Assembly: GCF_021278025.1 (NCBI RefSeq)
Contig: NZ_JAIBHJ010000027.1
Span: forward strand, 1 to 53,386
Reading direction: 5' to 3'
Source of the DNA: Motilimonas sp. E26
GTDB taxonomy: Bacteria; Pseudomonadota; Gammaproteobacteria; Enterobacterales; CBDFNC01
Length of the DNA: 53,386 bases
This document shows, piece after piece, positions 1,304 through 17,380 of the stretch. The notes beneath the pieces were generated by a model. It was not told the origin of the DNA. It saw nothing but the letters and a program-made list of their open reading frames with translations, and made no database searches. The position numbers and the translations under genes are program-made. Every line of letters begins with the position of its first letter. Position 1 is the first letter of the stretch.

Positions 1304-1545
1304 CTAGCGAATCCCCACAAAATATCTTTCGCTATCAAATATATAGAAACGCATCGCGTTGTGTGATCTAATTAATTTCGCCAAAAACAAACCAGATTAC
1401 AACGAGATGCGTGAACTTAATATCATACACCAACAGCTACAAAATCAATGCCCTTCCTTTCATTCACAAAAAACGACTTCAATCCCTCATCGATTCTACC
1501 CAAGCATTCCTCCAAGGTGACCGCCTCACCCTTACTCAACATGGA
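1304..1545 (+). mobile_element. Left end of an IS10-like (IS4 family) element, transposase N-terminal pseudogene
   Basis: The sequence from CTAGCGAATCCCC at 1304 resembles the IS10 outside end (CTGATGAATCCCC in memory), and the untranslated leader also resembles IS10 (TTTCGCCAAAAA followed by CAGATTACAACGAGATG). The ATG at 1407 opens a frame [20 protein letters not shown], the start of an IS10-group transposase. A frameshift near the A-run at about 1467-1473 moves the reading to [20 protein letters not shown], which again fits the family (recalled counterpart: RLNSLTLACHALLDCKTLTL). Identity stops at about 1545, where IS66 sequence begins. This is a decayed fragment with no functional product. 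Confidence 0.7.
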
Positions 1546-1980
1546 GTCTAGCCCGCTGGGTAAGGCGATAAAATACACGTTCGGCCAATGGCCAAAGCTC
1601 ATCCGCTATATCGATGACGGCCATTTATCGATAGACAATAACCGCGCTGAACGCGCAATTAAACCGCTGGTCATTGGCAGAAAAAACTGGCTCTTCTCGA
1701 CCACCCCTAACGGGGCTGAAGCGAGCGCGATGCTTTACAGCATCGTTGAAACCGCGAAAGCCAACGGACTCATCCTCTATGACTACATGGTCAAGTGTAT
1801 GCAGGAGTTAGCGAAAGCGGAGCCAGATATCGATGCGCTCCTGCCTTGGAACTTCAAACATTAGCAATATCAGCCCGTGGGATCATGGGTCGTTTACGAT
1901 CTATCTCCCCTATTCGGCTGTATCTACCCTTTTCATGTGCCATTTAGCATTGGTTCGGGCGGGGTTTATGACGCGCTTAC
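1545..1980 (+). mobile_element. IS66-family remnant: transposase (TnpC) C-terminus and right end
   Basis: The frame ending at 1864 carries the typical C-terminal part of IS66 transposases: [15 protein letters not shown], then [16 protein letters not shown] (containing the last catalytic Glu of the DDE triad in the NNRAER motif), [10 protein letters not shown] and the terminal ALLPWN. About 100 residues remain of roughly 500. After the stop, the element appears to end at 1980 in GACGCGCTTAC, matching the IS66 terminal inverted repeat (GTAAGCG read inward). The 5' part, including tnpA and tnpB, is gone and is replaced by IS10-like sequence. The continuous frame from 1448 is therefore a chimera of out-of-frame IS10 and in-frame IS66. 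Confidence 0.8.
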
Positions 1981-3326: not shown

Positions 3327-4295
3327 TTACAACTTACCTAACCAATCCCTAAGCACGGGTTGAACCTCTGGCCCAACCACTACACCCATATGGGTCACAT
3401 CGGGTAATAGCTTCACGTCTACTTTTGTGTATTCACTGATCAATGGTTGGTATTGGTCTACATACATGGTTTCGTCAGCAGTACCTGCAATTACCAGCAA
3501 TGGCTGGTTAATACTGCTCAAATCTTGCTGATAATCTCGCGGCGCAAAAGAAGTATTAAGGCGATAGGAGTAAACCAAGGTTTCACTGCCATTTCGCAGT
3601 GGCTCTGGCAGGTTAAATTGTATTGCCGTGAGTGAATCAAACCAGTGAACACCGATGTTATTTAACATAGTGAGTCCCACAATCCGTCCCGTATAAGGCT
3701 GTGCCCAACCGCCTGCATTTGGCTTTGTGGTGGGTGCGTTGTAATAGATAAAAGGCGCTAATAATACATAGGCGTCGGCTTGCCCGCCATACTGGCCACC
3801 AGCAAAACGGATAGCTAATCCGCCTCCCGAAGAATGACCGCCAACGATCACCTTAGTGTCGGGATGGCGGGTTTTGATCATTGCCATAAAATCGGCTAAA
3901 TCATCTTCAAATTGGCCAATGTAATCGACATCGCCACGTCTTTTCGGATCATGCCCATGGCCGCGTAAATCTGGTGTATAAACCTGCGCCAAACCTTGTT
4001 TGCTGACATAGTTTGCCAAGGATAAAAATTGCTGGCTATGCCAACCCGAGCCATGCAATAAGATGAGTGTTTTATTAGCCCGACTAGGATAATGGCGATA
4101 AGCGAGCGCAGTATTGTCCCGGGCCTGATAATATTGCAGTTCAGGTAATGAATTGTAATCTATCAACATTTCGTTGAAGTTAATGTTATCAGCACCTTGC
4201 TCTGCAGATATTTTTGGCTTGCTAACTATTATTAACGTCGCCGCGATGCCAAGATAAATTAGCACTGCAATAAGTAAAATTTTTAATATTATCAA
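3327..4295 (-). CDS. Membrane-anchored alpha/beta hydrolase (serine hydrolase)
   Basis: 322 residues. An N-terminal hydrophobic segment (about residues 4-24) anchors it, and the rest is an alpha/beta-hydrolase domain of the Hydrolase_4 / lysophospholipase type. Visible features are the oxyanion loop LLHGSGWHSQ near 80, the nucleophile elbow GGHSSGGG near 153 (catalytic Ser), an Asp in AGTADETM near 272 and the catalytic His in VTHMG near 302. The reaction should be ester or lipid hydrolysis; substrate unknown. The frame opens at a TTG (4293-4295) with no ATG available before the membrane segment and no good Shine-Dalgarno, so the start is uncertain. It is separated from the RNA-repair operon by a terminator, so it is probably a separate unit. 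Confidence 0.75.
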   Translation of the reverse strand: MIILKILLIAVLIYLGIAATLIIVSKPKISAEQGADNINFNEMLIDYNSLPELQYYQARDNTALAYRHYPSRANKTLILLHGSGWHSQQFLSLANYVSKQGLAQVYTPDLRGHGHDPKRRGDVDYIGQFEDDLADFMAMIKTRHPDTKVIVGGHSSGGGLAIRFAGGQYGGQADAYVLLAPFIYYNAPTTKPNAGGWAQPYTGRIVGLTMLNNIGVHWFDSLTAIQFNLPEPLRNGSETLVYSYRLNTSFAPRDYQQDLSSINQPLLVIAGTADETMYVDQYQPLISEYTKVDVKLLPDVTHMGVVVGPEVQPVLRDWLGKL

Positions 4296-4320
4296 TACTT
4301 AAGCCCATATTTAAAACTAA

Positions 4321-4347
4321 GTAAAACCCCCGCTAAGTGGCGGGGGT
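4321..4347 (-). terminator. Rho-independent terminator of the RNA-repair operon
   Basis: GC-only stem CCCCCGC (4327-4333) / GCGGGGG (4340-4346) with a six-base loop; on the minus strand it is followed by TTTTAC. It lies 45 bases after the stop of the HD/kinase gene and marks the 3' end of the rtcB-prfH cluster. Confidence 0.85.
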
Positions 4348-4392
4348 GTTTGGCGACAACAGACTAAGTGTAAGTCTAGGACAAGCTGGTAA

Positions 4393-5652
4393 CTAAAACG
4401 TACCTTGCCTGAACAATTCATTGCCTTTGTCACCAATAATAAGCATTCGGTGTCCTTCGGTCATGGAAGGCCACTCTAACTTGGTTAATTGGCGGTTAAT
4501 AATCTCATCTCCAACAACATGCTGCCGGCTTTTATCATGACGTCGCAGCGTACTTTCCTTTACTTGAAAAGCAACAATGGTAATTAACGCCCCATAATTC
4601 AGGCCAAAGTCGCAAATTATTTGCCTAAAATCTTTACGAATATTAGTCGCATCCCACACAACATTTCGCTTATTTGCTAACGCTGTTTTTAATCGAGATT
4701 TAGCCAGCTGCAACATTTGACCACGATTTTTTTGGCAACTTCTTTTTCCGTTGATCTCTTCGCGTATTTCATCTAATGAAATAACCTCGAATCCGTTAAG
4801 GTTTTGCGCAATCCAAGTGGATTTACCACTGCCACTAATGCCACACATCACGTAAAGATGGCTGTAGCCTAAAGCACCTTGGTAGTTCTTAGCGAGCGCT
4901 TCCTCTATCATATTTATTTGGCCAATTGCGAGCTGACGAACAGCATAACCATTCAAATAGGCTTGTTCAGAACGAGAAGGTTTAACCTGAATAGGCTTTA
5001 ATATATTGTCTGTTGGCTCATCCACACTCCATAGCTCATATTCTTGAGCGAACATTCTAAACTGTTCAAGCAAATCGATTTGTAGCGATGAGTCTGTACA
5101 CGTTCGGCCTTGCATATCCGCTAATTCAAGCCAATAAAGTAGTGCTAAGTCTACATGCAGTGAAAGGTGCAAGTAGTCGCTGTAACTATTATTTTTGATC
5201 ACTAGGCTTTTTGGCATCTGATGGTAGCCCACTAGCCCTATAATGGCTCTTATTACTTTATGCTCAAGGGGTAACTCAAGCAATTTAATAGCTAAATAGC
5301 TGGCACCAACCTCCTCGTGCTTTGGCGCAACAACACGTTCAATACCCGCAATTAGCTTACGCTTTGTGGTTATCGGTTTTGCAATATCGTGCAGTAGAGC
5401 CGATAGGATCAATATCTGCCTTTTTACGCCGGTTATATGCTTGGCGTCAGCGTTGAATATTTCATACAGTTTACTCAATACCATGTCTGTATGGATGGCC
5501 ACATTACCTTCCGCATGCCAAATGCTGTCTTGCTCAGTGTCAGCAAATTGGTGCAATAAGGGAAATGTCTCTCCTAAGTACCGTACACATTCAGCAAAAT
5601 TTGGCGAATGGTCTAAGGCTAAGCTATCTAGCCAGGTTGCTAGTTTGTTCAT
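4393..5652 (-). CDS. HD-domain / polynucleotide kinase fusion (HD-Pnkp type RNA end-healing enzyme)
   Basis: 419 residues in two parts. Residues about 45-200 form an HD phosphohydrolase domain, with H in WHAEGNVAIHTDMV, the HD pair in ALLHDIAKP and a later H in GYHQMPKS. Residues about 265-410 form a P-loop kinase of the T4 Pnkp type, with Walker A GISGSGKST, then SLDEIRE, WDATNIRK and an arginine-rich lid (RRHDKSRQHV). In characterised bacterial HD-Pnkp proteins (for example Runella) the kinase phosphorylates 5'-OH RNA ends and the HD domain removes 2',3'-cyclic and 2' phosphates, producing ends for a classical ligase. The gene starts one base after the stop of an RNA ligase gene, with its ribosome site inside that gene's end, so the two should be translated together. 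It is the last gene before a strong terminator. Confidence 0.85.
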   Translation of the reverse strand: MNKLATWLDSLALDHSPNFAECVRYLGETFPLLHQFADTEQDSIWHAEGNVAIHTDMVLSKLYEIFNADAKHITGVKRQILILSALLHDIAKPITTKRKLIAGIERVVAPKHEEVGASYLAIKLLELPLEHKVIRAIIGLVGYHQMPKSLVIKNNSYSDYLHLSLHVDLALLYWLELADMQGRTCTDSSLQIDLLEQFRMFAQEYELWSVDEPTDNILKPIQVKPSRSEQAYLNGYAVRQLAIGQINMIEEALAKNYQGALGYSHLYVMCGISGSGKSTWIAQNLNGFEVISLDEIREEINGKRSCQKNRGQMLQLAKSRLKTALANKRNVVWDATNIRKDFRQIICDFGLNYGALITIVAFQVKESTLRRHDKSRQHVVGDEIINRQLTKLEWPSMTEGHRMLIIGDKGNELFRQGTF

Positions 5653-5653
5653 C

Positions 5654-6295
5654 TTAACCGCCTTTTTTTAGATTTATATTGCTTAATCCATTAGGAACCA
5701 ATTCAGCATGCATCCAATGTTTATCAGTGATCACATGGTTACTTCTCACCCATTTAGCGACACTTTTATTAAATTGTGAGTAGTGAAAACCATCAGTTAC
5801 TCTTACTACGTAACCTTCTTGGTGTTTTGTATCCAGCACTATGTTTTTTATTGTTTTTTCGCACCATAAGCCAACATACAACTCTTTCGGGGTGATTAAG
5901 CCTAATTGTGCAAAAAAACGTTTGCTGTCTTGCCAGCTTAAGCATTCGTTGTTTTCATTCCATAGTGAAAACGCCATAAAATAACTCATTAATGCTTCAT
6001 AACTAATCGAGTGCCTTGCATAGAGGTTTTCACCACAAATACGCCACCCTTGTGGAATTTGGTAACCAATCTCAGCTTGCAATCCTTTCACCCATGTTCT
6101 GGATGGGTGAAAGCGACTATCAATCGAGCGAGCATGCACAAAATCACTGTAAATAGTGGTATTTTCGCCATCCATTTTTTCTGTCACAACGACTTGTCGG
6201 TTTTCAAAACAGCTTACATTACCTTGGTAAAGGTCATCATCGGTCGCCCCCGGTGACCAAGGCAAGTGCGGGGTGCGAGGGTATTTAATTCTCAT
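5654..6295 (-). CDS. ATP-dependent RNA ligase (nucleotidyltransferase family)
   Basis: 213 residues, containing essentially only the nucleotidyltransferase core. Motif I is TEKMDGENTT near residues 38-47 (adenylated Lys in KMDGEN), motif III is GENLYARHSI near 104-113, motif IV is EGYVVR near 160, and motif V is VAKWVR near 179. This fits the RNA_ligase (T4 Rnl2-like) superfamily, which joins 5'-phosphate and 3'-OH RNA ends through an enzyme-adenylate. It is shorter than T4 Rnl2 (about 330 residues) and lacks an obvious C-terminal domain. It pairs with the HD/kinase gene that follows after one base and would supply the sealing step after end-healing. A structured 155-base spacer separates it from the upstream phosphatase gene. 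Confidence 0.85.
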   Translation of the reverse strand: MRIKYPRTPHLPWSPGATDDDLYQGNVSCFENRQVVVTEKMDGENTTIYSDFVHARSIDSRFHPSRTWVKGLQAEIGYQIPQGWRICGENLYARHSISYEALMSYFMAFSLWNENNECLSWQDSKRFFAQLGLITPKELYVGLWCEKTIKNIVLDTKHQEGYVVRVTDGFHYSQFNKSVAKWVRSNHVITDKHWMHAELVPNGLSNINLKKGG

Positions 6296-6335
6296 TATGT
6301 AACTCCAAACTTAAACGTTATGATTGCCCGTTAGG

Positions 6336-6410
6336 TCAATCTCTTAATGGTTTTATGCAGCGCATAGTTAATTCTCCATTCCTGAAATGGCGAATATGAC
6401 GATGCGCTGC
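6336..6410 (-). promoter_or_regulatory. Structured spacer with a nine-codon mini-ORF inside the RNA-repair operon
   Basis: Nested inverted repeats: GCAGCGCAT (6357-6365) with ATGCGCTGC (6402-6410) encloses CCATT (6376-6380) / AATGG (6386-6390). On the minus strand the outer stem contains the ATG (6363-6365) of a tiny frame, MRCIKPLRD then TGA at 6336-6338, preceded by GGAG eight bases upstream. The stem would sequester this start. This may be a translational control or RNA-processing element ahead of the ligase gene, or an internal leader. No T-rich tract follows, so it is not a simple terminator. Confidence 0.45.
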
Positions 6411-6451
6411 TGAGCTAGAATTACATTGCCCTACCCTCTAATGTTCTGAAT

Positions 6452-6796
6452 TTAAGTTAGCGCCAAATAGCTACTAACATGTTGTTTTATTAGAATTACT
6501 AATTCTTTGTCCATGTATTGATATTCATCAGGAATATCTAATACCTGAATATCTTTATGAATTAACAACTTATAAAACTGTGCTTTTAACCTATTCTTGT
6601 GTTTTTGCTCCATAACAAAAATAACATCCGCCCACTGAATGGTATTGGCATTCACCCTTCTATGCGCCTTTGTGCTTGTACCTGCTGATTTTACAGCTAG
6701 CGTAGGATGATTTTTCCATACCTGCTCACCCGTTGGGCTTCGCCATTGGTTACGGCTACAAATAAACAGTACATTTGTTACTTGATGTTGCTGCAT
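6452..6796 (-). CDS. Small LMW-protein-tyrosine-phosphatase-fold protein (COG4551-like) in the RNA-repair operon
   Basis: 114 residues, the normal length for this short LMW-PTP branch, so not truncated. The phosphatase P-loop C-X5-R-S is present as CSRNQWRSPT near residues 13-22. SAGTSTKAHRRV follows, then WADVIFVMEQKHKNR, and near residue 87 the general-acid region LDIPDEYQYMD. All parts needed for cysteine-dependent phosphomonoester hydrolysis appear intact. The start ATG overlaps the prfH stop by one base (TAATG), so it is translationally coupled to prfH. Such proteins are annotated as tyrosine phosphatases by fold. In this operon an RNA-end phosphate or a phosphorylated translation component is an equally plausible substrate; that is inference. 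Confidence 0.8.
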   Translation of the reverse strand: MQQHQVTNVLFICSRNQWRSPTGEQVWKNHPTLAVKSAGTSTKAHRRVNANTIQWADVIFVMEQKHKNRLKAQFYKLLIHKDIQVLDIPDEYQYMDKELVILIKQHVSSYLALT

Positions 6797-7452
6797 TAAA
6801 TCATCGCTCCCTTACTCACAGAGCGCTCATGACTTAAGATAAATTTTTCACCTTTAAATGTTTTTACCGGATCACCGCGCTCAACTTGCCAGTGCTGTTG
6901 CCAACGTTTCTTTTCTTGCTGCGTCATGGTTGCCAATTTCGTTGCTTCAAGCTTTTGCAACAATATGGCCTTGGCTAAACGTTTATTGGCATGTTGACTG
7001 CGCTCACTCTCAACCCGCACTGACATACCTGTTGCGGTATGGGTGGCTCTTACCGCCGAATCGGTGGTATTAACATGCTGACCACCCGCACCCGACGCAC
7101 GGCATGTTTGAAAAGTCACACTGTTATCAAGTTGACTGTCATCAATGTCATACATTTGACCGCTAAAAAACCAGTTTTTACGTTTGTGCTTAGGTCGATA
7201 CTGACTTTGACATACCCACAACATAGCGCCCTGCCATGATATAGCAACTTGCCTCGCACCATCCTCGGGGGTGGAATCAAGTTGCAACAACACCGATTTA
7301 TAGCACTCTCGTTCTTTTGCCGTGATCGTTTCAACGACATCCAACTTGATACCTTTATCTAAACATTGTTTATTAATCATGTTGAACGCCAAGCCAACGG
7401 CTTTACAGCATTCCATTGGGCCTTGCCCTGCTGATATTTGCAGTAAAATCAT
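6796..7452 (-). CDS. prfH: PrfH, class I release-factor homologue acting on damaged ribosomes
   Basis: 218 residues. It starts MILLQISAGQGPMECC, closely matching remembered E. coli PrfH (MILLQLSSAQGPEECC), and holds the peptidyl-tRNA hydrolysis motif GAGGQHVNTTDSAVRATH near residues 124-141. ERSQHANKRLA follows, as in domain 3 of release factors. It lacks the codon-recognition domain of RF1/RF2. PrfH is reported to release peptide from ribosomes cleaved in the decoding centre so that the partner RtcB2 can religate the 16S RNA. I placed the start at the ATG at 7450-7452, which overlaps the rtcB stop in ATGA, rather than the GTG three codons upstream. The coupling supports joint function with RtcB. 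Confidence 0.9.
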   Translation of the reverse strand: MILLQISAGQGPMECCKAVGLAFNMINKQCLDKGIKLDVVETITAKERECYKSVLLQLDSTPEDGARQVAISWQGAMLWVCQSQYRPKHKRKNWFFSGQMYDIDDSQLDNSVTFQTCRASGAGGQHVNTTDSAVRATHTATGMSVRVESERSQHANKRLAKAILLQKLEATKLATMTQQEKKRWQQHWQVERGDPVKTFKGEKFILSHERSVSKGAMI

Positions 7453-8639
7453 GCTGAGCACTCCCCATTGGTTTTAAAGGTTAAAACGGGGCGCAGCCTT
7501 GCCAGCACCTCAATTAGTCCTGCTTCTACCATATCGCTGATCACCGTTTCACATTTTTTGTATGCTTGGGGGGCTTCGTCGTATAGCAATTCTTTATTGC
7601 CACATACTACGCGGCTACCTAGCGCGGTTCGGTATAAGTCTTCACGCTTGTATTTATGACCGAGGCGGCCATGGCATTCACCGCGTTGCCACTTACGACC
7701 CGCGCCATGGGCCAGTGAAAATAAGCTAATGCGGCCATTTTCAACTTGGTTTGAGCCATCCTCATTTGAATTGACTAAAAGCGGTTTAACCAGATAACTG
7801 TGATCCCCCCGCGACCCCGGAATAACCACATAGCCTTTGTCACTCGGGGTGGCGCCTTTTCTGTGTAGCCAGCCATTCAAACCATCCATGTTTTTTGCCG
7901 ATACTAAATTGTGATTAATATCTAACGTGCAGTTTCCATTGGCGCGAATGGCCTCTAAAAAGCGCATGGCAATTAATTCACGATTCAGCTCTGCAAAGCG
8001 CACGGCTTCGTCATGTTGTTGCATGTATTTGGCAAAGTCGGCATCACTTTCAGATAATCCATCGTGACTGTATTTTGTTATATGCGCGGCTAGAATTGAC
8101 TGCCCAAGCCCACGTGAGCCTGAGTGCACAAGTAGCTGCAGGTGCTTTTTATTCAACCCTAACTCATCTAATACTGCTTGATTGTAAATCTCATCAATGG
8201 CCTGAAATTCAGCGAAATGGTTACCCCCACCTATGGTGCCCAAGGCATGGTCATAGCCATTGATGGTGATGTTTTTGGCCGCTTTTCTAGATTGAATAAC
8301 CGACTGCCAGCTGTCATCGAGTGGCTGCTCAACATGGGTGAATTTTTTGGCTAATTTATCAAGATTAACCTTTGATACTTTGGCGGAGGTTTGCCATAAC
8401 GACATACCACAACCAATATCATTACCCACCAGCGCGGGGTAAATTTTGTTGCTAGTAAAAAAAGCTGCACCAATGGGGTAACCTCTACCGGGGTGTAAAT
8501 CAGGCATGCCCGCAACGCGCTGCATGCCCTCTAGCTGAGCTGTTTTGATCAGTTGTTGTATTGCCAGCCCTTCAATCCACGTATTTTTAGACGCAATGAG
8601 GCTAACGTTTTCAGAAATTTTTTGGACGGATTTGCCCAT
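7449..8639 (-). CDS. rtcB2: RtcB-family RNA ligase (RtcB2, PrfH-linked)
   Basis: 396 residues, normal RtcB length. It has the metal-binding NDIGCGM near residues 73-79, GGGNHFAEFQ near 137, VHSGSRGLGQ near 170 and the guanylylated histidine motif SLAHGAGRKW near 310. RtcB joins 2',3'-cyclic-phosphate or 3'-phosphate ends to 5'-OH ends using GTP and Mn2+. Here it leads a five-gene operon and overlaps prfH by four bases, the arrangement of the RtcB2-PrfH ribosome-repair pair rather than the rtcA-linked rtcB. An AAGGA ribosome site lies nine bases before the ATG. No sigma-54 promoter or RtcR regulator gene is seen upstream, so control appears to differ from the E. coli rtcBA operon. Confidence 0.93.
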   Translation of the reverse strand: MGKSVQKISENVSLIASKNTWIEGLAIQQLIKTAQLEGMQRVAGMPDLHPGRGYPIGAAFFTSNKIYPALVGNDIGCGMSLWQTSAKVSKVNLDKLAKKFTHVEQPLDDSWQSVIQSRKAAKNITINGYDHALGTIGGGNHFAEFQAIDEIYNQAVLDELGLNKKHLQLLVHSGSRGLGQSILAAHITKYSHDGLSESDADFAKYMQQHDEAVRFAELNRELIAMRFLEAIRANGNCTLDINHNLVSAKNMDGLNGWLHRKGATPSDKGYVVIPGSRGDHSYLVKPLLVNSNEDGSNQVENGRISLFSLAHGAGRKWQRGECHGRLGHKYKREDLYRTALGSRVVCGNKELLYDEAPQAYKKCETVISDMVEAGLIEVLARLRPVLTFKTNGECSA

Positions 8640-8797
8640 AGTACCAATTCCTTTTTCTTTATTAGAAAAATAGGATTAAAACGAAAATCGAATTGGCAGG
8701 TCTGGATCTATGTTGAAATCATCGAAAGGAATGAAGTTAACGCGGTGTTTAGCTAAATATACTTAGTGTACAAAGACGTATTTGAGCAACCCGTTTC

Positions 8798-8839
8798 TTA
8801 TCGGATAAGACCTGCAAAGGATGTTAATGTAAATGTCAT
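8798..8839 (-). CDS. Leader-like mini-ORF (13 codons) upstream of rtcB2
   Basis: On the minus strand TAAGGAG, eight bases before an ATG at 8837-8839, is as strong a ribosome site as any in the operon. The frame reads MTFTLTSFAGLIR then TAA at 8798-8800. The last codons lie in an inverted repeat, CTTATC-C-GATAAG, which includes the stop region. It sits about 160 bases before rtcB2. A leader peptide sensing translation state would fit an operon for ribosome repair, but conservation is untested and such short frames can arise by chance. The rest of 8640-8964 holds no gene that I can support. Confidence 0.35.
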   Translation of the reverse strand: MTFTLTSFAGLIR

Positions 8840-8882
8840 GATATTTTCTCCTTACAGTAAGTTGATCAATTGAGTTGGTATA

Positions 8883-8903
8883 GAGCACTTTTGGTTAGTG
8901 CTC
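8883..8903. promoter_or_regulatory. Perfect 7-bp inverted repeat upstream of the rtcB2 operon
   Basis: GAGCACT (8883-8889) and AGTGCTC (8897-8903) are separated by seven bases. It lies 44 bases ahead of the mini-ORF on the minus strand and 137 bases ahead of the lipoprotein gene on the plus strand, between two divergent units. It could be an operator or a transcript hairpin. Confidence 0.35.
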
Positions 8904-9039
8904 ATTAATTGGGCGGCATAGTATTCAGTTTTTGTGCGTAAAGCAACTGCAATTTTAGGTTAATTTGACTTATCATCCTGCGGCTGTTGCAATATTTCCC
9001 CCTGAGCGCGCATTTACTTACACAATTTTGGAGAGGTGT

Positions 9040-9909
9040 ATGCCCTTTAAATCGTATATTTTTTGTTTTTTCGGCTTTTTCTTAATGAGCTGTGATGCCA
9101 GCCCTGACTACTTGACCGATCTTAGACGCCATAAAGACACGGTGGGTAATTTTGTCGGTAAGGGCTTAACCGTTGCAGAGCGCGATACGGACCTGGATTG
9201 GTATGTAGCCGACTTTCATAGCACAGCGCTAAAAAATGCCTCACTGCTTGAATTCGCGCCCGAGAATGATTTTAAGTTTGTGCGTAGTTACAAGTTTTAC
9301 GACGGCTCAGGGCTGCTCTGGTCGTGGACTCACTCAGGTCGCCAGTTCAATATGATTTATAGCTTTGTCGGCCCTGGCACCGATGTCACCATAGTTGAAA
9401 ACACCCATCACCTTACGGACGATGAAATCATTATTGCGCTGTACTTTGAAGACAAATATCAAGCCGTACTCAATGTGTTTGAAGCCCCTAAATGGCGTAT
9501 TGTTGATCAGCCAATCACTTACCAGCCCGAAGCGCTGGGCTTTTTAGATCTCGTCGGCGACATTTTTCAAGGCAAGGTTGCCACCCTACCTTATGTGCTA
9601 ATTGAAAGTTCAGGTTGCGCCTATTTAGAAGACAATCAAGAAACATGTACCGATCTGCCCGCTCCTTTCAAGCAATGGTTAACTGAAAATGCAACGAGTT
9701 TGTTTGGTGATAAATCCAAAGCCGAATTTGGTCTCAAAGTTGTTTACAACGATAAGGCAGAGTTTAGCGAGGTAATTGCTGCCTATCACTACAGTGAAGG
9801 GTACGATAAAAATGGATACCCACTTCTTAGTGACATCCAACTGCCTATTGCTAAAGGCTACCTAAATGAAGGCAGCCGACTTAAGCTGCCGATTGGATAC
9901 AGGTATTAG
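9040..9909 (+). CDS. Hypothetical lipoprotein
   Basis: 289 residues from the ATG at 9040, which has a GGAGAGG ribosome site; a longer in-frame TTG start at 8965 has no such site and would bury the signal. The N-terminus MPFKSYIFCFFGFFLMSC is a lipoprotein signal with lipobox LMSC. The residue after Cys is Asp, which in enterobacteria favours retention in the inner membrane. The mature part is soluble and rich in aromatic residues (DLDWYVADFH, LLWSWTHSGRQF), and has a CAYLEDNQETC pair that could form a disulfide. The family is not recognised. It is divergent from the RNA-repair operon and shows no link to it beyond proximity. Confidence 0.7.
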   Translation: MPFKSYIFCFFGFFLMSCDASPDYLTDLRRHKDTVGNFVGKGLTVAERDTDLDWYVADFHSTALKNASLLEFAPENDFKFVRSYKFYDGSGLLWSWTHSGRQFNMIYSFVGPGTDVTIVENTHHLTDDEIIIALYFEDKYQAVLNVFEAPKWRIVDQPITYQPEALGFLDLVGDIFQGKVATLPYVLIESSGCAYLEDNQETCTDLPAPFKQWLTENATSLFGDKSKAEFGLKVVYNDKAEFSEVIAAYHYSEGYDKNGYPLLSDIQLPIAKGYLNEGSRLKLPIGYRY

Positions 9910-10435: not shown

Positions 10436-11974
10436 CTACACCCGATACTGACACAGCTCAGGCGCTAGCATCAAGCCTTGGCTTTTCAGTAATTGAATGC
10501 GTTGTAGATACGCAGCGCCTGTCATTAAGTGACTGACTACGTCCACCACTTTACGGTTTTGGTATTCGGCTAAATAAGTACCCTTAGTCCATGCGTTAAA
10601 TGCGCCCAGTGCAGGGCCTGCCCAAATTTGATAATCCATTTCGCGCCCGACTTCGCCTTGGTTTGACCAGCGGCTGGAAAGGCCTAAATACCAGCGGAAA
10701 ATTAACGCCATTTTGCGTTTAGGGTTATTTTGCGCGCGCTCGATTTGTTTAGGGTCACGACTGTTAAAATGGGCAACGGTGTTCTGCCACACCACTTCAA
10801 GGGGTTGACGAAATACTTGCTGCTCGAGCTTTTCACGCTCAGCGGCAGGAATAGCATCAATGCTGTCGTATTGCTGATACAAGTCGTATAACTTTTGCGC
10901 GCGCATTGGGAACAAGGTGCCGCGTTTAACCACTTGTAGTTGTACGCCCATTTCAAACATATCGGCGGCTGGCGCCATGGTCACGTCGGCCATTTCGGTG
11001 GTCGATAATAGCTTTTTGGTGTGTTCACTGGCACCTGCTTCAATACAGGCTTGGTTAACCGAGCCGGTAACAATAAAGTCTGCGCCCATGGCAAAGGTAG
11101 CTAACGCGGCACTTGGCGTCCCCACGCCGCCACCCGCACCTACGCGCACGGGCGTGCTAAATTGATATTCAGCTTGCAACTGGTCGCGCAAACTGATCAA
11201 AGTTGGCAATAAAGTGACTAATGGACGGTTATCAGTGTGGCCACCAGAGTCCGCTTCGGCGGTAATGTCATCGGCCATTGGCACCTGCTGTGCTAATTCA
11301 AATTGTTGCGCGGTGATCAAACCTTGATCTAGCAAGCTTTGCAGTAATTTAACCGGCGCAGGTTTAATGAACTTTTCGGCTACTTCAGTGCGTGATACTT
11401 TGGCGATCACTTTGTTAGCTATGTTGATCTGACCTTGCGCATTCACACTTAACCCTGCGGCGCGATAACGCACAATGTGCTCAGTTAAGCCCAAAAATGC
11501 CGATGCTTCAACGGTATGTACGCCATGGCTTAAATATAATTCCACGCAGCCACGCTCTAACGCTGGCTCACTGGGGCTGTGGATCAAGTTAAATGCATAA
11601 GGGCCATTGGGCAGCGCCGCTTGAATGGTGCTAATAGCTTGCTTAACACGTTCTGGCACTAAACCCGCCGCGCCAAATGAGGCTAAAAAGCCCGCTTGGC
11701 CTAACGCTATTACCATTTCTTCTGAGGCAATGCCATTGGCCATGGCGCCCGCGTAATAAGCATAGTTAACGCCGTGACAGGCTTTAAAGGCGGCGCTGCC
11801 AAGTTCAGTGGCATCACAAGCAGGTGCAAAGGCTAATAGTGACTCGCCATTAACAGCATTGGCATCGGGGCGAATGGTGACGCCCTGCGCGCTATTAAAT
11901 ACAAAGCTATTTTGCGCCAGCTGACGCAGTGCCGTTTGGTTGGCGGTGGAAAATTCTAGTGTATTCATTGTCAT
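10436..11974 (-). CDS. pfaD: PfaD, enoyl reductase subunit of the PUFA synthase
   Basis: 512 residues. An FMN-dependent TIM-barrel enoyl reductase of the nitronate-monooxygenase-like type found in PUFA synthases. Visible features are GVNYAYYAGAMANG near 69, the substrate-loop region ADSGGHTDNRPL near 241 and the flavin-phosphate motif VGAGGGVGTPSAALA near 277, then GADFIVTGSVNQA. It reduces enoyl intermediates during PUFA chain growth. It starts seven bases after the pfaC stop, as the last gene of pfaABCD. The ATG at 11972-11974 is used, with another in-frame ATG two codons later. Length is normal to slightly short for the family (about 540). Confidence 0.95.
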   Translation of the reverse strand: MTMNTLEFSTANQTALRQLAQNSFVFNSAQGVTIRPDANAVNGESLLAFAPACDATELGSAAFKACHGVNYAYYAGAMANGIASEEMVIALGQAGFLASFGAAGLVPERVKQAISTIQAALPNGPYAFNLIHSPSEPALERGCVELYLSHGVHTVEASAFLGLTEHIVRYRAAGLSVNAQGQINIANKVIAKVSRTEVAEKFIKPAPVKLLQSLLDQGLITAQQFELAQQVPMADDITAEADSGGHTDNRPLVTLLPTLISLRDQLQAEYQFSTPVRVGAGGGVGTPSAALATFAMGADFIVTGSVNQACIEAGASEHTKKLLSTTEMADVTMAPAADMFEMGVQLQVVKRGTLFPMRAQKLYDLYQQYDSIDAIPAAEREKLEQQVFRQPLEVVWQNTVAHFNSRDPKQIERAQNNPKRKMALIFRWYLGLSSRWSNQGEVGREMDYQIWAGPALGAFNAWTKGTYLAEYQNRKVVDVVSHLMTGAAYLQRIQLLKSQGLMLAPELCQYRV

Positions 11975-11980
11975 TCTTCG

Positions 11981-14900
11981 TTAACCCTTAACTTCGGCAT
12001 TAGCAGCGGCATTGGCCGTGTCTTGCTCGGTCTCTTTAATGCAAAGAGCAATATCTGTAACTTCATAAATGCGCAGACCGTCTTTAGACAAATCGGCATT
12101 GGCAATTAGCGTGACTTTATTTGGCTCGCAGATCACTTGGGTGATCTGCACGTTAATGTTCATCAAGGTATTGAGCGGGTTAATTTGCCCGCGATATTTC
12201 CATTTCACATTACTTAGCAGTGGCATAAAGCGCGGTGAAATAAGCTCGCTGCCTAAGTCTTGTTTTAAGGCAAACACTTGCATTACTTCAATAATGGCCT
12301 CAACGCCCAATGAGCCCGGCATCACCGGATCTTGATGGAAGTGAAATTGGAAGAACCAATCACTTGGATCAATCGTGCGCTCAGCGTAGCAATAGCCTAA
12401 CTGATGCGTGCCGCTATTTGGCAGCAAGTAAACGGTATCAACAAAGTTTAATCGCCCTCCCGCCAAGCGGTAATGTGGCCGCTTCGGGTCAACGGCAAAT
12501 AAAGGGTTTTGTTGATTGGTTAAATCAATGCGCTCAGGCATTTGATTGCTGCCAACGGTGGCGGCGTCTTGCTCTAAGTACCAAGCTTGACGCACCTTGC
12601 CGTTATCTAAGCCCAGTTGATGGGTCAGCGCCTCGGCTTTAAAATAACCAAATACCGCGCTGCCTTGATAAAACGGCGCGCCATCGGTGGAGAGCACAAA
12701 ATCAAAGCTTTGAATAATGTTAGTCCCTGCGATCACCGTTGATTTCAAGGTCGATTCGTTGACGATGGTTTTACCGCGCAAGTCCACTTCACGCAGCAAC
12801 TCGCCTTGACCGTCGAGGTTTCTAAAAAACAGCTCGGTGCCAGGAAAGCCTAATGTGGTGCCCATGTAGCCGGAGATAAAGCCATTAGGTTGCAAGGATA
12901 TTTCCATCAAGATGGAATACGGCATGTAATTGTGGTGGCTGTTGCCCTGGAAGTACCAAGCATCAGCAGGCACATCATATTCCGCAATACAGCTAGCAGG
13001 ATGTTTTAAATCGCCGCGTTTACCTTGCACATCAATCACTCGGGTGGTGAGTTGTAAATCACCACATGGGGTGCGCGGCGGGATCAAGCCATCGTAAATA
13101 CGGTAGTCTTCACCAAAACACTGGCAAATATCACCTGTAGCAAATTCAAACAAATGATAAGGGGTAAAAGGCAAGGTATCGGGCGTGCGGTTTTCACCCA
13201 CCACCACTGGCGCGGGCACATGTTTTAATGGCACAACGCCTTTGATTTTTTCGGCGCTTAAATCGGGCACTTGCGCCATTAACGGTGCGCTGGTACTGGG
13301 CAATCTGGTATTAGGTAATTTCAACCCTGCTTTCGCTACCCCTTTAATCATTACGCCAAGGTTTTTAAAGTCCACCACTACCTTGCCATTAAGCACTATG
13401 TCAATGTCGGCTTTGGCATAAGGCATCGGATGCAAACCGATTTCCGTTACTTGCATGCGATACACCAAGGTGCCATGTTGCGGCAGTACTTGACCTCGAC
13501 AGCGCACTTTTTGCGGCTCGTTCGCCATCGGTTGAAAGCGCCCTTGCTCGACTAAGGTGTGTAAGCCTAAATACATCATGTAAAACTGCAGCAGTTGACC
13601 ACAGCCTTCAGCCATCAGTGAGCCCGCCATCACTTGATCGTCTTTAAAATGACACGGGAAATACCAGTGCTGCGGATCAAGGCATTTTTCACCTTGCAGT
13701 GAACCAAGTCCCCAAGGGCCGCCGTGGATATCGATATTGGACACTTGCTCAATCATCAAGAATTTTTCAGATGAGAAACAAAGTGATGAGTTTTTATCAG
13801 TGGCGTATTCAGCGCCAAAACAAGCCGAGACATCGCCTTGGATCAAATGGCGGATTGCCTCTGTGTTAAAAGCAGTTTGCTGATGGGCTAGCAGCGGTGT
13901 GAAGTGTTGTTTTTCAACTTGAGCCAGCGCCTTTAATTCATCTTGTGTTTTGATCACCCCTTTACCATCGGCTAGCTCTTGGTCGGTGAAAAAGCCGGCG
14001 CAGCCGCCGTCCATTTTCAGCACCATGGTATCGCCCACGAAGCACTCATAAGAGAAGAAGAACAACAAGGTATCGCCATTGCGCGCAAAATGATTGATGC
14101 TAATGTCGTAGCGCAAGGTCTCACCGCCTTTTGGCAAGTCAGCGAGGAAGGTTAAAGTACAATCAAGTAAACGATATACTCGCTCACCTTTGTTTTCAAA
14201 ATCAATGCCTAAGTAGCTGATCAGCATTAAATCACATTGGCCTGATTCAACCGCCACCGCCCAAGGAATTTGTCCGTCCACTAGATAAGGGGCATCCAGC
14301 GGAATATCGTATTCGGTGGTCATGGTGCAAGGCTTGTATTCGTTGACCTTGGCATTGAGCTTGGTCACCCGCGACACCAATAAGTAATCGGTAGTCGGCA
14401 AACGCACGCGGCGCGGATAACTGTCAATGATGGCGTATTCAGGGCCAAACACCTTAGCAATCGAGCCTTCTGAATACTCAACTAAATCGTCATAGTTCCA
14501 GATCTCGCCCGCTTTTGGCTGATAAGTTTTAGCTTGATAGGTTTCAGTGCGCTTAGGCAAAGGAGTCTGGCGCACCAGTCGAGCAAAATCATTTAAACCT
14601 TGCTGGCGCGTTTGTGCCACTTGGCTTGCTTGCTCATGTTGCGCCAAGGTGATTGGCTGAGCGGCTGTGTGTAAGTTAACTGACAAGGCTGTTCCCTGTT
14701 CGATTATGGTATTTGAAATAGAGGGGCCGCCGAGCACGACGGCTTTCACTAAGCCGACTTTCTGCGGCGTGGGCACCTTGAATGCCTTGGACATCTTGAC
14801 ATTAACGGCACTTTGCAACGTGACTTGGCTTAAGCTGCCATCAATACACTGCATGTAAGCCGCCGCTAATTGGCCTTGTGGTGCTGGACTTGGTAAAGCT

Positions 14901-17380
14901 GGGTTTAACTTGACCAGCACACTTAATAAACTAAACAAACCGCTGGCAGCATAAAGGTGACCCGTCTGTTCGCTACTGGTTTGCACCATGGCGTTCGGAT
15001 GACGTTGTTGACAACGCTGTTGTAACTCCTGTTGCCCTTGTTGGCTATCACTGCCGGTGATGTCCACTAGGCTAATGTCTGCGTCATCGTTTTGTGTGCT
15101 TAACTCATTAAGTTGACCACGGGTAGCAAAGTTTAGGCTGGTGATCTGGCCATAATAGGGCTGGGAAGTCACTTCATCACTGGCTAAACGCAGCACAATC
15201 GCACCCGCTCCGTCACTCACATGGCCGCAAAAATCAGCCGTTAATTGCTGGCGCAGAGCAAAGTTTTCAGCACTGGCGGCTAAATCGACAGCGGCCACGA
15301 CAACGGCATCCACTTCCCCTTGTACCAGCATATCCTGGGCAATTTGCAAGCAGTTGTAAACGGAGTTTTCTTCGCTGGAAATAGTAAACGCTGGGCCATT
15401 GAAGTCCCACAGTGACGCTATTCGCGAAGCCATAATATTGCCAATAAAACTGGTGTATTGATTTAACTTGGCAGCGCCTAACACGCTGTCCATGGCAATG
15501 GCTTGTAACTTGGCTTGCTCAGCTGTCGTAAGCGTAATGCCTGCTTGCTTGAGGCTGGCAGGAAGTTGCGTTTGCAAATTAACTCGGCCACGAAATTGAT
15601 GGGTTTCTGGCTCAGCCGACATGGCCACCAGCACAGCAACATTATCGCCAACTTTCACTTTGCCATCCTGCAAGGCTTGGTCGGTAACTTTCATTAACAA
15701 TAACTGCTGAGGGATCAAGCTATCATCATTATTTGGCGGCACTTTAAATTGCATAAAGTCCAGCTCAAACTGTTCAATAAAACCGCCTCTCATTGCTTCA
15801 GGCTCTGCCACTAATTGTTGCTCCATGCCCTTCCAGCGCAGTGGCGGCAAAGGGACAAACACGTCTTGTTGCTCAGACATAATTTGCGCAAAATCAACTA
15901 TGTTTTCAGCGCGACCAACATGACAAGCGACGCCGGTGATTGCCATTGCAGTGGTGCTTGACTCACGTTTGTTCGCTGCTATTGATTTAACATCGGTGGC
16001 AGGCGGTTGTTGTAATACTAGATGGGCGTTACAGCCGCCAAAACCAAAGGCTGAAACCCCTGCACGCTTTGGCGCACTGCTGTTATTGGCTGGCCAAGGC
16101 TGTGCATTCCTGACTAATTGTTGCTCGCCCCACGCAAGATTACCTGAGCTAATAGGCGCATTAATGCCAATGCTGGCAGGTATTTGGTTATGTTGCATCG
16201 ACAATATGGTCTTCACAATACTGGGCATACCCGCCGCAGTCAGCAAATGACCGATATTACCTTTGACTGAGCCAATCAGTGGTACCTGCTTGCCATCGCC
16301 AAAAAATTGCGACATCGAGTTCAACTCGACTTTATCGCCCAGTGGTGTGCCGGTGGCATGACACTCAATGTAATCCACGTCGCTGGGTTTAAGCTTCGCT
16401 TGGAGATAAGCACGCTGATAGGCCAGTACTTGGCCTTTACTGTTTGGACTAAGCACAAACTGACCGCGGCCATCATTAGAAAGGCCGACGCCTTCAATAG
16501 TGGCATAAATCTTATCTTGATCACGCAGTGCATCATCAAGGCGTTTCAGTACCAGTACTCCCGCTCCCTCACCGGCAAATAAACCTTGGCTTTGCTGATC
16601 GAACGGCGCTGAAATCCCATTGGCGGGATAAGCCTGAAAAATGGAAAATCCCATATTGATAAAAAAGGGGTCTGAGCCAGACACGGCACTGGCCAGCATC
16701 ACATCACTGCGCCCCGCGATTAAGGCATCACACGCTAGCTTAACGCTATATAAAGAAGAAGCGCAGGCCGCATCTAAAGCATAATGACCACGGCCAAGCC
16801 CTAATGCATTGGCCACTAACCCGGCGGTGTAGCCGGCAATCAAGCCTTGTTTGGCATCGGCTTGCTGATCATTAACGTGATCAGTGGTGTGATAGTCTTG
16901 ATCAAATGCCTCCAGTTTAAAGTCTTTGCCGAGTACTTGCTGCAACCCTGCTTCGACCGCGCGATGATATAGCGCCAAGTAAACTTGGTTTGAGCCTTGA
17001 GTCGGAAACGATAACGCGCCTAGGACTAAACCTGTTTGCTTTAACACCTCGTCCGTTAACGTTACCCCAGCGTCAAGCAAGGCTTGCTTGCAAACTTGTA
17101 AGATCCAGTGCTGGTGGCAGTCAAGTTGACTTAATTGCTCAGCAGATACTTGATAGCCAGTTGCATCAAAATCAAACTGCTCGATATACCCGCCGCGATG
17201 ACTGTAATGTTTGTCATTGTCACCCTTACTGCCGGAGAAATCGGCAGGATCGGCACATTGGCGCGCGGGATTGACGTGTGTGCGTGAATCACGTTGCTGC
17301 TGTAAATTTTGCCAAAACCCCTCAAGATCATGACTACCTGGAAATAAATGTGCGATACCGACAATGGCAATACTGGTCAT
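11981..17380 (-). CDS. pfaC: PfaC, PUFA synthase subunit with KS, chain-length-factor and dehydratase domains
   Basis: 1799 residues. An N-terminal ketosynthase (about 1-450) has catalytic Cys near residue 206 in ALDAACASSLYS and His in ECHATGTPLGD. A second ketosynthase-like region (about 480-850) has SSEENSVYN where a Cys would be expected, as in a chain-length factor. The C-terminal half holds two FabA-like dehydratase units, with catalytic-type motifs HFKDDQVMAGSL and HFHQDPVMPGSLGVE, each after a non-catalytic hotdog (PWAVAVESGQCDLM and NYMPYSILMEISLQP). These dehydratase/isomerase domains set the cis double bonds. It overlaps pfaB by one base (TAATG). It is about 200 residues shorter than the PfaC proteins I recall from Shewanella and Moritella (about 2000). 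Confidence 0.95.
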   Translation of the reverse strand: MTSIAIVGIAHLFPGSHDLEGFWQNLQQQRDSRTHVNPARQCADPADFSGSKGDNDKHYSHRGGYIEQFDFDATGYQVSAEQLSQLDCHQHWILQVCKQALLDAGVTLTDEVLKQTGLVLGALSFPTQGSNQVYLALYHRAVEAGLQQVLGKDFKLEAFDQDYHTTDHVNDQQADAKQGLIAGYTAGLVANALGLGRGHYALDAACASSLYSVKLACDALIAGRSDVMLASAVSGSDPFFINMGFSIFQAYPANGISAPFDQQSQGLFAGEGAGVLVLKRLDDALRDQDKIYATIEGVGLSNDGRGQFVLSPNSKGQVLAYQRAYLQAKLKPSDVDYIECHATGTPLGDKVELNSMSQFFGDGKQVPLIGSVKGNIGHLLTAAGMPSIVKTILSMQHNQIPASIGINAPISSGNLAWGEQQLVRNAQPWPANNSSAPKRAGVSAFGFGGCNAHLVLQQPPATDVKSIAANKRESSTTAMAITGVACHVGRAENIVDFAQIMSEQQDVFVPLPPLRWKGMEQQLVAEPEAMRGGFIEQFELDFMQFKVPPNNDDSLIPQQLLLMKVTDQALQDGKVKVGDNVAVLVAMSAEPETHQFRGRVNLQTQLPASLKQAGITLTTAEQAKLQAIAMDSVLGAAKLNQYTSFIGNIMASRIASLWDFNGPAFTISSEENSVYNCLQIAQDMLVQGEVDAVVVAAVDLAASAENFALRQQLTADFCGHVSDGAGAIVLRLASDEVTSQPYYGQITSLNFATRGQLNELSTQNDDADISLVDITGSDSQQGQQELQQRCQQRHPNAMVQTSSEQTGHLYAASGLFSLLSVLVKLNPALPSPAPQGQLAAAYMQCIDGSLSQVTLQSAVNVKMSKAFKVPTPQKVGLVKAVVLGGPSISNTIIEQGTALSVNLHTAAQPITLAQHEQASQVAQTRQQGLNDFARLVRQTPLPKRTETYQAKTYQPKAGEIWNYDDLVEYSEGSIAKVFGPEYAIIDSYPRRVRLPTTDYLLVSRVTKLNAKVNEYKPCTMTTEYDIPLDAPYLVDGQIPWAVAVESGQCDLMLISYLGIDFENKGERVYRLLDCTLTFLADLPKGGETLRYDISINHFARNGDTLLFFFSYECFVGDTMVLKMDGGCAGFFTDQELADGKGVIKTQDELKALAQVEKQHFTPLLAHQQTAFNTEAIRHLIQGDVSACFGAEYATDKNSSLCFSSEKFLMIEQVSNIDIHGGPWGLGSLQGEKCLDPQHWYFPCHFKDDQVMAGSLMAEGCGQLLQFYMMYLGLHTLVEQGRFQPMANEPQKVRCRGQVLPQHGTLVYRMQVTEIGLHPMPYAKADIDIVLNGKVVVDFKNLGVMIKGVAKAGLKLPNTRLPSTSAPLMAQVPDLSAEKIKGVVPLKHVPAPVVVGENRTPDTLPFTPYHLFEFATGDICQCFGEDYRIYDGLIPPRTPCGDLQLTTRVIDVQGKRGDLKHPASCIAEYDVPADAWYFQGNSHHNYMPYSILMEISLQPNGFISGYMGTTLGFPGTELFFRNLDGQGELLREVDLRGKTIVNESTLKSTVIAGTNIIQSFDFVLSTDGAPFYQGSAVFGYFKAEALTHQLGLDNGKVRQAWYLEQDAATVGSNQMPERIDLTNQQNPLFAVDPKRPHYRLAGGRLNFVDTVYLLPNSGTHQLGYCYAERTIDPSDWFFQFHFHQDPVMPGSLGVEAIIEVMQVFALKQDLGSELISPRFMPLLSNVKWKYRGQINPLNTLMNINVQITQVICEPNKVTLIANADLSKDGLRIYEVTDIALCIKETEQDTANAAANAEVKG

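Follow-up and report, generated by a model that had tools for sequence, protein, structure and literature searches.

The window analysed here is the 53,386-nt contig NZ_JAIBHJ010000027.1 of Motilimonas sp. E26, one contig of a 4.6-Mb genome. It carries, all on the minus strand, the five genes rtcB2, prfH, ptp, rnl and hdpnkp. We consider it somewhat probable that they form one RNA-repair operon with two serial translational switches, worked by ribosomes that have initiated but cannot advance. The first switch would control rtcB2-prfH-ptp and the second rnl-hdpnkp. The original prediction, made from the letters of this stretch, named the five genes as one RNA-repair set, and the open reading frame (ORF) list, NCBIfam, Pfam and the catalytic motifs place all of them where it did. 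It omitted the 156-nt gap between ptp and rnl and the leader of rtcB2, hence the regulation.

7449-8639, minus strand: rtcB2, RNA 3'-phosphate/5'-OH ligase of the PrfH-linked RtcB subfamily (NCBIfam)
6796-7452, minus strand: prfH, peptide chain release factor H (NCBIfam)
6452-6796, minus strand: ptp, phosphatase of 114 aa with the low-molecular-weight protein tyrosine phosphatase (LMW-PTP) fold and the catalytic loop CSRNQWRS (PF01451)
5654-6295, minus strand: rnl, ATP-type (classical) RNA ligase of 213 aa (PF09414)
4393-5652, minus strand: hdpnkp, HD phosphoesterase plus P-loop polynucleotide kinase (HD and AAA_33)

A leader of at least about 220 nt upstream of rtcB2 contains the conserved RNA elements of the first putative switch, in which a short ORF with a Shine-Dalgarno sequence (SD) is followed by segments able to pair alternately, the last being the ribosome-binding site (RBS) of rtcB2.

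8847-8858, minus strand: leader element 0, SD region of the leader ORF (CTGTAAGGAG), pairs with element 1
8798-8839, minus strand: rtcB2 leader ORF of 13 codons with a good SD (MTFTLTSFAGLIR, stop UAA)
8807-8820, minus strand: leader element 1 (CCTTTGCAGGTCTT), within the ORF, pairs with element 0 or 2
8689-8703, minus strand: leader element 2 (AGACCTGCCAATTCG), pairs with element 1 (on) or 3 (off)
8640-8653, minus strand: leader element 3, the rtcB2 RBS (AAGGAATTGGTACT), pairs with element 2

A script found a leader ORF with an SD in 47 of the 53 rtcB2 loci of at least 300 bits, a set that includes two duplicate pairs (L019/L096 and L026/L090) and one doubtful leader (L131). The script missed L020, L021, L022, L030, L029 and L080; on a second look L080 has the leader, and by eye L029 seems to have it. 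The conserved leader RNA CUUUGCAGG is read as FAG (SFAGL) in one group of loci and as LCR in another. Two reading frames run across the motif, and the conserved part is therefore the RNA and not the peptide; a conserved leader peptide before rtcB2 was set aside on this ground. The pairing was computed over 42 distinct leaders and compared with slid controls. Cells were paired in 92% for stem 0:1 (slid 39-65%), 90% for 1:2 (slid 19-54%) and 75% for 2:3 (slid 25-54%), and five of the eight 1:2 pairs are changed on both sides. The covariation scores of the three stems were 0.20, 0.30 and 0.29, against at most 0.11, 0.12 and 0.14 in slid versions (for 2:3, 0.288 against 0.059-0.138).

Predicted folding follows the position of the ribosome. 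In 44 distinct leaders, a ribosome mask at the leader start raised the mean probability of 1:2, P(1:2), from 0.45 to 0.88 and lowered that of 2:3 from 0.42 to 0.20. A mask at the leader stop abolished 1:2, as it must; it opened the RBS in 4 of the 44 and closed it in 15, and a ribosome at the stop codon was rejected as the inducing state. A codon-by-codon scan of 25 of the 47 leaders, picked for spread, gave a mean P(1:2) of 0.70-0.89 with the P site on codons 1-4, 0.16 at codon 5, 0.04 at codon 6 and 0.00 after. Healthy ribosomes would thus traverse the 13-codon leader and cover element 1, and the rtcB2 RBS would stay closed in the 2:3 stem. A ribosome stuck on codons 1-4 would cover element 0, leaving 1 free to pair with 2 and favouring an open RBS. 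A transcription terminator was also considered; on the minus strand the scan gave nothing terminator-like from the leader to rtcB2, and the last stem covers the RBS. A known element was likewise set aside: an Rfam search up to E 5 (window 4200-9100) gave nothing that overlaps one of the two leaders, and PADLOC-DB matched none of the five proteins at E 0.001.

The leader resembles one in Pseudomonas aeruginosa. There, PA5471.1 is a 13-aa leader about 250 bp upstream of PA5471 (armZ), homologue of E. coli ykfJ (PMC3516279). ArmZ has been called an 'RtcB-like RNA ligase', and the adjacent PA5470 is prfH (PMC12057347). In PA5471.1, codons 3-4 take part in the response and the off state is modelled as complete translation, whereas ArmZ rises with an amber codon at position 3 or when the leader is deleted (PMC13041342). 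As in the window, an RtcB-like gene is followed by prfH, a 13-codon leader lies upstream, and early stalling is the on state; the predicted on-state for codons 1-4 agrees with these leader experiments. What characterizes a PA5471.1-type leader is found here in silico, namely a 13-codon ORF before rtcB2 and alternative stems that open on early stalling. P. aeruginosa differs in using transcription attenuation with a terminator, with output to MexXY efflux, whereas here the last stem closes the RBS. The likeness is one of position, length, neighbours and logic. By this analogy we treat the rtcB2 leader as a wider class of the known leader type, in which an RBS-closing last stem would replace the Pseudomonas terminator. 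The available text of the P. aeruginosa leader papers (PMC3516279, PMC12057347, PMC13041342) does not mention conservation across rtcB2-prfH operons, and in that of the 2006 paper defining the rtcB2-prfH pair (PMC1586002) the words leader or attenuat- are absent.

The E. coli RtcB2-PrfH pair (PMC9223846) has the same two families, above the NCBIfam cut-offs and in the same order, and the window adds to a pair of this type three genes with their own control element. In E. coli NGF1 (L168, 2311-2443) an unannotated leader ORF, MTNPLSMTLCRPFQD, with matching alternating segments stands before an RtcB-family gene (by eye), just downstream of dinB-yafN-yafO-yafP. A leader of the same layout thus precedes rtcB2-prfH in many Gammaproteobacteria including E. 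coli, so its signal becomes a general and testable question, for which damaged ribosomes are the obvious candidate. If true, this would join the literature on ribosome repair by RtcB2-PrfH with that on PA5471.1 and antibiotic-inducible efflux.

The locus could also be a plain defence operon, an RNA-repair cassette of described kind that is transcribed constitutively or under stress and whose leader structures are ordinary RBS hairpins that sense nothing. Both RtcB-PrfH with accessory genes (PMC6514570) and HD-PNK (polynucleotide kinase) beside a ligase in Deinococcus (PMC1997131) are on record. We find this improbable in view of the conserved short ORFs, the alternating stems above slid controls, the frame-independent conservation of RNA and the experimentally studied leader that precedes the corresponding P. 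aeruginosa gene.

The second putative switch lies in the 156-nt gap between ptp and rnl (6296-6451), which contains a conserved RNA element. The order along the gap is SD, AUG-UAA, hairpin and rnl RBS, the RBS being nearly complementary to AUGUAAUUCCA.

6433-6438, minus strand: SD region of the start-stop element (GAGGG), ahead of AUG-UAA
6421-6426, minus strand: start-stop ORF AUG-UAA, a hexamer invariant in the aligned leaders
6415-6426, minus strand: anti-RBS arm AUGUAAUUCUAG, overlapping the start-stop ORF (RNAalifold consensus)
6296-6309, minus strand: rnl RBS arm (TTTGGAGTTACATA), pairs with the anti-RBS arm

An SD with AUG-UAA is present in all 19 leaders made up of the window and the 18 closest ligase loci (L088-L105), which were unselected for the start-stop motif and five of which are not full islands. 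By eye, GAGG, GGAG or AAGG stands about 8 nt ahead of the AUG in 18 of the 19, and L102 has GGA only. Across an alignment of 17 leaders, whose mean column identity is 52%, none of the six AUGUAA columns varies. RNAalifold, applied unguided to this alignment, gave as consensus just the anti-RBS arm with the rnl RBS; 93% of cells in this stem are paired (slid 23-59%), and the pairing beats dinucleotide shuffles in 16 of the 19 leaders (at most 1 of 60 as high). With the start-stop footprint masked, the predicted unpaired probability of the rnl RBS rose in every one of the 19 leaders, from a mean of 0.31 to one of 0.53; like-sized control masks further down gave a mean opening of 0.33. The marks that we propose for a start-stop attenuator (SD plus AUG plus stop, overlap with an anti-RBS arm and conservation of the hexamer) are therefore found in the closest 19. 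Conservation of AUGUAA merely as the complement of the rnl RBS was rejected, as the RBS-side partner UUACAU is exact in only 8 of the 19 leaders (by eye), AUGUAA in all of them, and the reverse word [TC]TACAT occurs at expectation.

The hexamer recurs in distant gammaproteobacterial rnl leaders: 16 of 23 loci carry ATGTA[AG] at a distance of 60-215 nt from rnl (2.4 expected from shuffles), as ATGTAA in 14 and ATGTAG in two (L158 and L120). The other 38 rnl loci have 3 (1.2 expected). Loci were sorted as Gammaproteobacteria by the naming of their records, with L142 excluded as too short; two of the 23 are not stand-alone, L120 having prfH upstream and L131 PTP and RtcB2 matches 3-7 kb away. Control words in the 23 loci were found and expected as follows: ATGTGA 0 and 0.8, GTGTA[AG] 1 and 1.4, ATGTA[CT] 1 and 2.2, [TC]TACAT 3 and 3.1. 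Fifteen distant leaders were folded, chosen for containing ATGTA[AG] and with the rnl starts of L128 and L158 corrected. In these the nucleotides that follow the hexamer pair with the RBS of their own locus above all but 0-3 of 60 shuffles, and the pairings use different sequences on both sides. Under strict filters, a covariance model of the element matched, among the 394 genomes of the order, the three that carry five-gene islands; these are the model's own building rows, so the matches show only the absence of others there.

In L107, L112, L114 and L123, about 100-140 nt before rnl, a small hairpin stands between an AAGG-type SD and AUGUAA (by eye), an arrangement reminiscent of hairpin-bridged Shine-Dalgarno sites. 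The rnl leader of L121 (7780-8001) has a longer ORF (SD plus MIFRYLTMCVLSLVKF...) and a GACCTC/GAGGTC pair at the rnl RBS (by eye), and is perhaps a variant switch in which the start-stop was replaced. An integron attC in the 156-nt gap was set aside, there being only a loose core-like string by eye.

Several points weigh against the two putative switches, which are drawn from conservation, pairing and predicted opening. The rtcB2 leaders are related, with Pseudoalteromonas over-represented, and the search words that located the segments partly determined the four central 1:2 pairs. Doubly changed pairs number 2, 5 and 7 for 0:1, 1:2 and 2:3, with 1-3, 1-3 and 2-6 in slid versions, so that this measure separates 1:2 well, 2:3 hardly and 0:1 not at all. 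The rtcB2 RBS is predicted to open only modestly, from a mean of 0.30 to one of 0.36 (more open in 28 of 44 leaders, less open in 5), and the aligned 2:3 stem is unpredicted in many leaders outside the Alteromonas/Vibrio-like group. Residues Q3 and F4 of PA5471.1 are not at those places in the leader of the window. For the start-stop stem, the 93% of paired cells compares with 91% when partners are reshuffled, and its doubly changed pairs (2 of 11) are equalled by one slid version. In L097-L099 the control masks open the rnl RBS more, and the pairing is not clearly above shuffles (6-7 of 60 as high); in L113 masking lowers the opening from 0.18 to 0.10. The covariance model R1, applied to 62 loci, reached the distant leaders only at L114 (E 0.085). 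Most of the 15 distant ATGTA[AG] leaders are by eye without a clear SD, so that AUGUAA may not serve as a start codon in them. Initiation in these cases could be leaderless or use a hairpin-bridged SD.

A further reading takes AUGUAA for a motif recognized by a protein or nuclease, e.g. a site of autocontrol by Rnl or HD-Pnkp, or a RelE-type A-site cut at the stop codon that opens the rnl RBS. It would suit the recurrence of ATGTA[AG] in distant leaders that lack a clear SD, and the pairing in all 15 folded ones, where at most 3 of 60 shuffles pair as well. It is unlikely given the SD-like motif about 8 nt ahead of the AUG in 18 of the 19 closest leaders (by eye) and given the variants found: ATGTAG (L158, L120) is another stop, while ATGTGA, GTGTA[AG] and ATGTA[CT] stay below expectation.

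Under the two-switch reading, transcription would be constitutive, ribosomes would use the elements, damage to the decoding centre would be the signal, and the two stages would follow in this order. HD-Pnkp and Rnl should restore 3'-OH and 5'-phosphate ends and then seal them. RtcB joins 2',3'-cyclic-phosphate to 5'-OH (PMC9223846), and the division of labour between stages is proposed because these family chemistries differ. In stage one, RtcB2 would reseal breaks with 2',3'-cyclic-phosphate and 5'-OH ends, for example the one that colicin E3 makes in 16S rRNA, and PrfH would free the nascent chain, as reported for the E. coli homologues. RtcB2-PrfH protects E. coli from colicin E3, and PrfH acts on colicin-E3-damaged ribosomes in work summarised in the same paper (PMC9223846); this action may close the loop. 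At the second switch, a ribosome on AUG-UAA need only terminate, and one whose A site refuses the release factor would be parked. The parked ribosome would unzip AUGUAAUUCCA from the rnl RBS, and the heal-and-seal pair would be made, HD-Pnkp healing the ends before Rnl joins them. Stage two may handle damage left over by RtcB2-PrfH, or ends not joinable by RtcB2. Both signals would arise from a cleaved decoding centre and from drugs that stall ribosomes at start codons, and the second from loss of release factor.

In its full form the proposal is tentative, and we give it somewhat less than even credence. It holds that the one-codon AUG-UAA ORF senses ribosomes able to start and unable to terminate and thereby unmasks a heal-and-seal operon. 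In five-gene islands this sensor would be staged after the tRNA-dependent RtcB2-PrfH leader, the second pathway being made only while damaged ribosomes persist, with PrfH switching stage two off. The start-stop sensor is the boldest and least proven part of the whole. If true, the start-stop codon pair would be the smallest possible control ORF in bacteria, and its signal should be termination failure alone, with neither peptide nor elongator tRNA involved. Pathways based on a 3'-phosphate ligase and a 5'-phosphate ligase would be combined, perhaps staged, in one operon. We would guess that the phosphatase, the least explained part, helps by trimming RNA ends or by regulating a partner protein.

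The operon might instead serve mainly to repair tRNA cut by anticodon nucleases, with RtcB2-PrfH as a minor part; the leader would then sense that charged or intact tRNA is short, as it is in the P. aeruginosa cca mutant. Pnkp/Rnl systems have a classical link to tRNA repair. When Cca is lost, armZ is induced through PA5471.1 (PMC13041342). On the other side, tRNA damage could not be reported by switch 2, since no elongator tRNA is needed on a start-stop ORF, and the genome of Motilimonas sp. E26 has a separate rtcB-rtcA pair. RtcB2-PrfH acts on 16S rRNA and gave E. coli no protection against colicins E5 and D (PMC9223846), a result that counts against our own reading as well. We regard mainly tRNA repair as quite improbable. 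A broader response to RNA-cleaving toxins, as the original prediction suggested, may be what the set serves.

The catalytic motifs expected of each family, among them the RtcB metal and guanylylation motifs, were found in all five proteins. RtcB2 scored 528 bits with TIGR03073 (cut-off 272) and 547 bits with NF007153 (cut-off 407). Its motifs NDIGCG, GNHFAE, VHSGSR, DINHN and HGAGR are intact, also when aligned to 2epg. PrfH scored 254 bits with TIGR03072 (cut-off 167), has an intact GGQ at residue 123 and has the PDB relatives 7sa4 and 9mor. The two genes are adjacent and overlapping, with rtcB first and of the PrfH-linked subfamily, as in the known RtcB2-PrfH module. Rnl matches Pfam RNA_ligase (PF09414, 2.7e-29) and contains EKMDG, EGYVVR and KWVR, that is the motif I lysine and motifs IV/V; no PDB sequence relative was found at E 0.01. 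HD-Pnkp matches AAA_33 (1e-22) and HD (4.8e-06), with an N-terminal HD domain bearing the HD doublet and a C-terminal P-loop kinase. Its kinase half matches PDB 4gp6 and relatives, presumably the Clostridium Pnkp kinase, and its gene adjoins that of the ATP-dependent ligase, as expected of an HD-Pnkp. The phosphatase matches LMWPc (PF01451, 9.2e-07), and its AlphaFold2 model has the LMW-PTP fold (pLDDT 94), with a C(X)5R(S/T) loop and 2cwd as the best Foldseek match (E 1e-6, TM 0.76 by query). At 114 aa, against about 150 aa in LMW-PTPs, it is some 35-45 residues shorter than most solved relatives; a DIPDEY motif near its C-terminal end may correspond to the DP-type general-acid loop of these enzymes. 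The separate rtcB-rtcA pair lies on contig C1 (169146-171287), so that three RNA-repair routes coexist in the genome.

In three overlapping genome sets, PrfH exceeded its cut-off in 6 of 369 (the class), 11 of 59 (close relatives) and 43 of 394 (the order). Among the 46 prfH loci other than the window, 36 have RtcB2 and PrfH only, four PrfH only (some at contig ends), two all five genes, two PTP a few kb away, and two PrfH with rnl and hdpnkp, one of these with weak matches. The full set is therefore present in 3 of 47 prfH loci, the window included. The ligase-based sample comprised the best 80 of 246 relatives. Here 13 loci have all five genes, three lack only PTP, 57 carry of the five only rnl and hdpnkp, three have rnl only and four are other mixtures; HD-Pnkp matches occur in 77 of these best 80, some of them weak (39-69 bits). 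With both samples pooled and duplicates removed, the full set occurs in identical order in 13 genomes besides the window, including L095, where the PTP match is short and weak (82 bits). The carriers are Motilimonas eburnea, Pseudoalteromonas prydzensis, P. rhizosphaerae, P. gelatinilytica and P. rubra, six P. luteoviolacea records, one Alteromonadaceae metagenome-assembled genome and a record named Endozoicomonas sp. G2_1, all marine-type Gammaproteobacteria as named in the sequence records. A four-gene form without PTP is present in Vibrio neptunius, Alteromonas sp. KUL49 and Alteromonadaceae M269.

Recurrence in fixed order in 13 further genomes means that this is not a chance neighbourhood. 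The five-gene set is an optional accretion on the commoner RtcB2-PrfH module, joined to a pair oftener found without it. The search of prfH neighbourhoods proposed in the original prediction thus had a mixed outcome: the set does recur, and then in this order, but only sometimes (2 of 46 other prfH loci, against 36 with RtcB2 and PrfH only). That prediction also named transcription as independent units as evidence that would speak against one set, and this is partly pointed to, because rnl-hdpnkp carry a translational control element of their own.

Some loci depart from the common layout. In Endozoicomonas sp. G2_1 (L019, 9103-9869) an extra gene between prfH and PTP is Ntn-hydrolase-like (proteasome-like, by eye) and is preceded by a short ORF, MLISQLKGALF, with an SD and hairpins, possibly a third leader. 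Vibrio sp. Of7-15 (L091, 5900-8000) has a 69-aa PTP piece, the start-stop leader, rnl and hdpnkp, with no RtcB2-PrfH match, and looks like a deletion remnant. In L022 (5359-8334) and L060 (5233-9009) PTP homologues lie 2.6-3.4 kb from rtcB2-prfH, and the stretch has neither rnl nor hdpnkp, a hint that PTP alone can be associated with RtcB2-PrfH.

Parts of this system resemble others already described. HD-Pnkp of Runella reportedly has the HD and PNK domain order and stands alongside an ATP-dependent ligase, and the architecture of Pnkp1 differs from that of HD-Pnkp. Plant AUG-stop upstream ORFs are also one-codon control ORFs, but they act by a eukaryotic scanning mechanism with a boron signal. 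Deinococcus DRB0098-DRB0100 share with the window the HD and PNK domain order and the operon with an ATP-type ligase, whereas the available text describes neither RtcB2-PrfH nor a start-stop leader (PMC1997131). In Pnkp1-Rnl-Hen1, ribotoxin-cut RNA is likewise repaired by an end-healing enzyme and Rnl, but the system includes Hen1, unlike the one here (PMC4411300). The accessory genes on record for RtcB-PrfH encode TPR, pol-beta nucleotidyltransferase, zinc-ribbon and charged-helix proteins; Rnl, HD-Pnkp and PTP are not named among them in section 2.4 of that paper (PMC6514570).

Control of a downstream gene by translation of a short ORF is known from toiL, where start-codon stalling induces topAI (PMC12121999), and from mgtQ, an intergenic small ORF that controls mgtB (PMC8092293) and likewise lies within an operon. 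Neither of these is a start-stop ORF, and neither controls RNA repair. No natural bacterial start-stop attenuator was found in the literature searched, among the matches listed; the nearest were engineered start-stop mutations and AUGUG/GUGUG reinitiation sites (PMC4965119, PMC9841429).

The coupling of the genes within the operon was read from the sequence and is as first claimed: rtcB2 and prfH overlap by ATGA (7449-7452), prfH and ptp by TAATG (6794-6798), and rnl and hdpnkp are separated by one base (5653). The prfH start was taken as the ATG of 7452 rather than that of a longer GTG ORF. The set is closed, as had been proposed, by a terminator-like hairpin. A candidate promoter lies upstream, and TTGCTT-17-TANNAT occurs at the equivalent position in L026, L027, L088, L089 and L098; we grade the candidate weak because the consensus promoter scan did not call it.

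8918-8946, minus strand: candidate sigma-70-like promoter TTGCTT-17-TACTAT (by eye)
4326-4347, minus strand: intrinsic terminator (terminator-like hairpin), 8-pair stem followed by TTTACTT

Elsewhere in the window, an RNA-OUT match (1344-1414, minus strand; 46.1 bits, gathering 41) lies beside an ORF (1448-1864, plus strand) that by eye resembles an IS66-type transposase fragment; such a pairing of RNA-OUT seems unusual. On the rtcB2 side, at 10436-17437 (minus strand), a PfaD-like gene adjoins a very large ORF; by eye the two probably represent a cluster for polyunsaturated fatty acid synthase. The M. eburnea island has matching neighbours on the rtcB2 side, and both of these genes are matched in its stretch.

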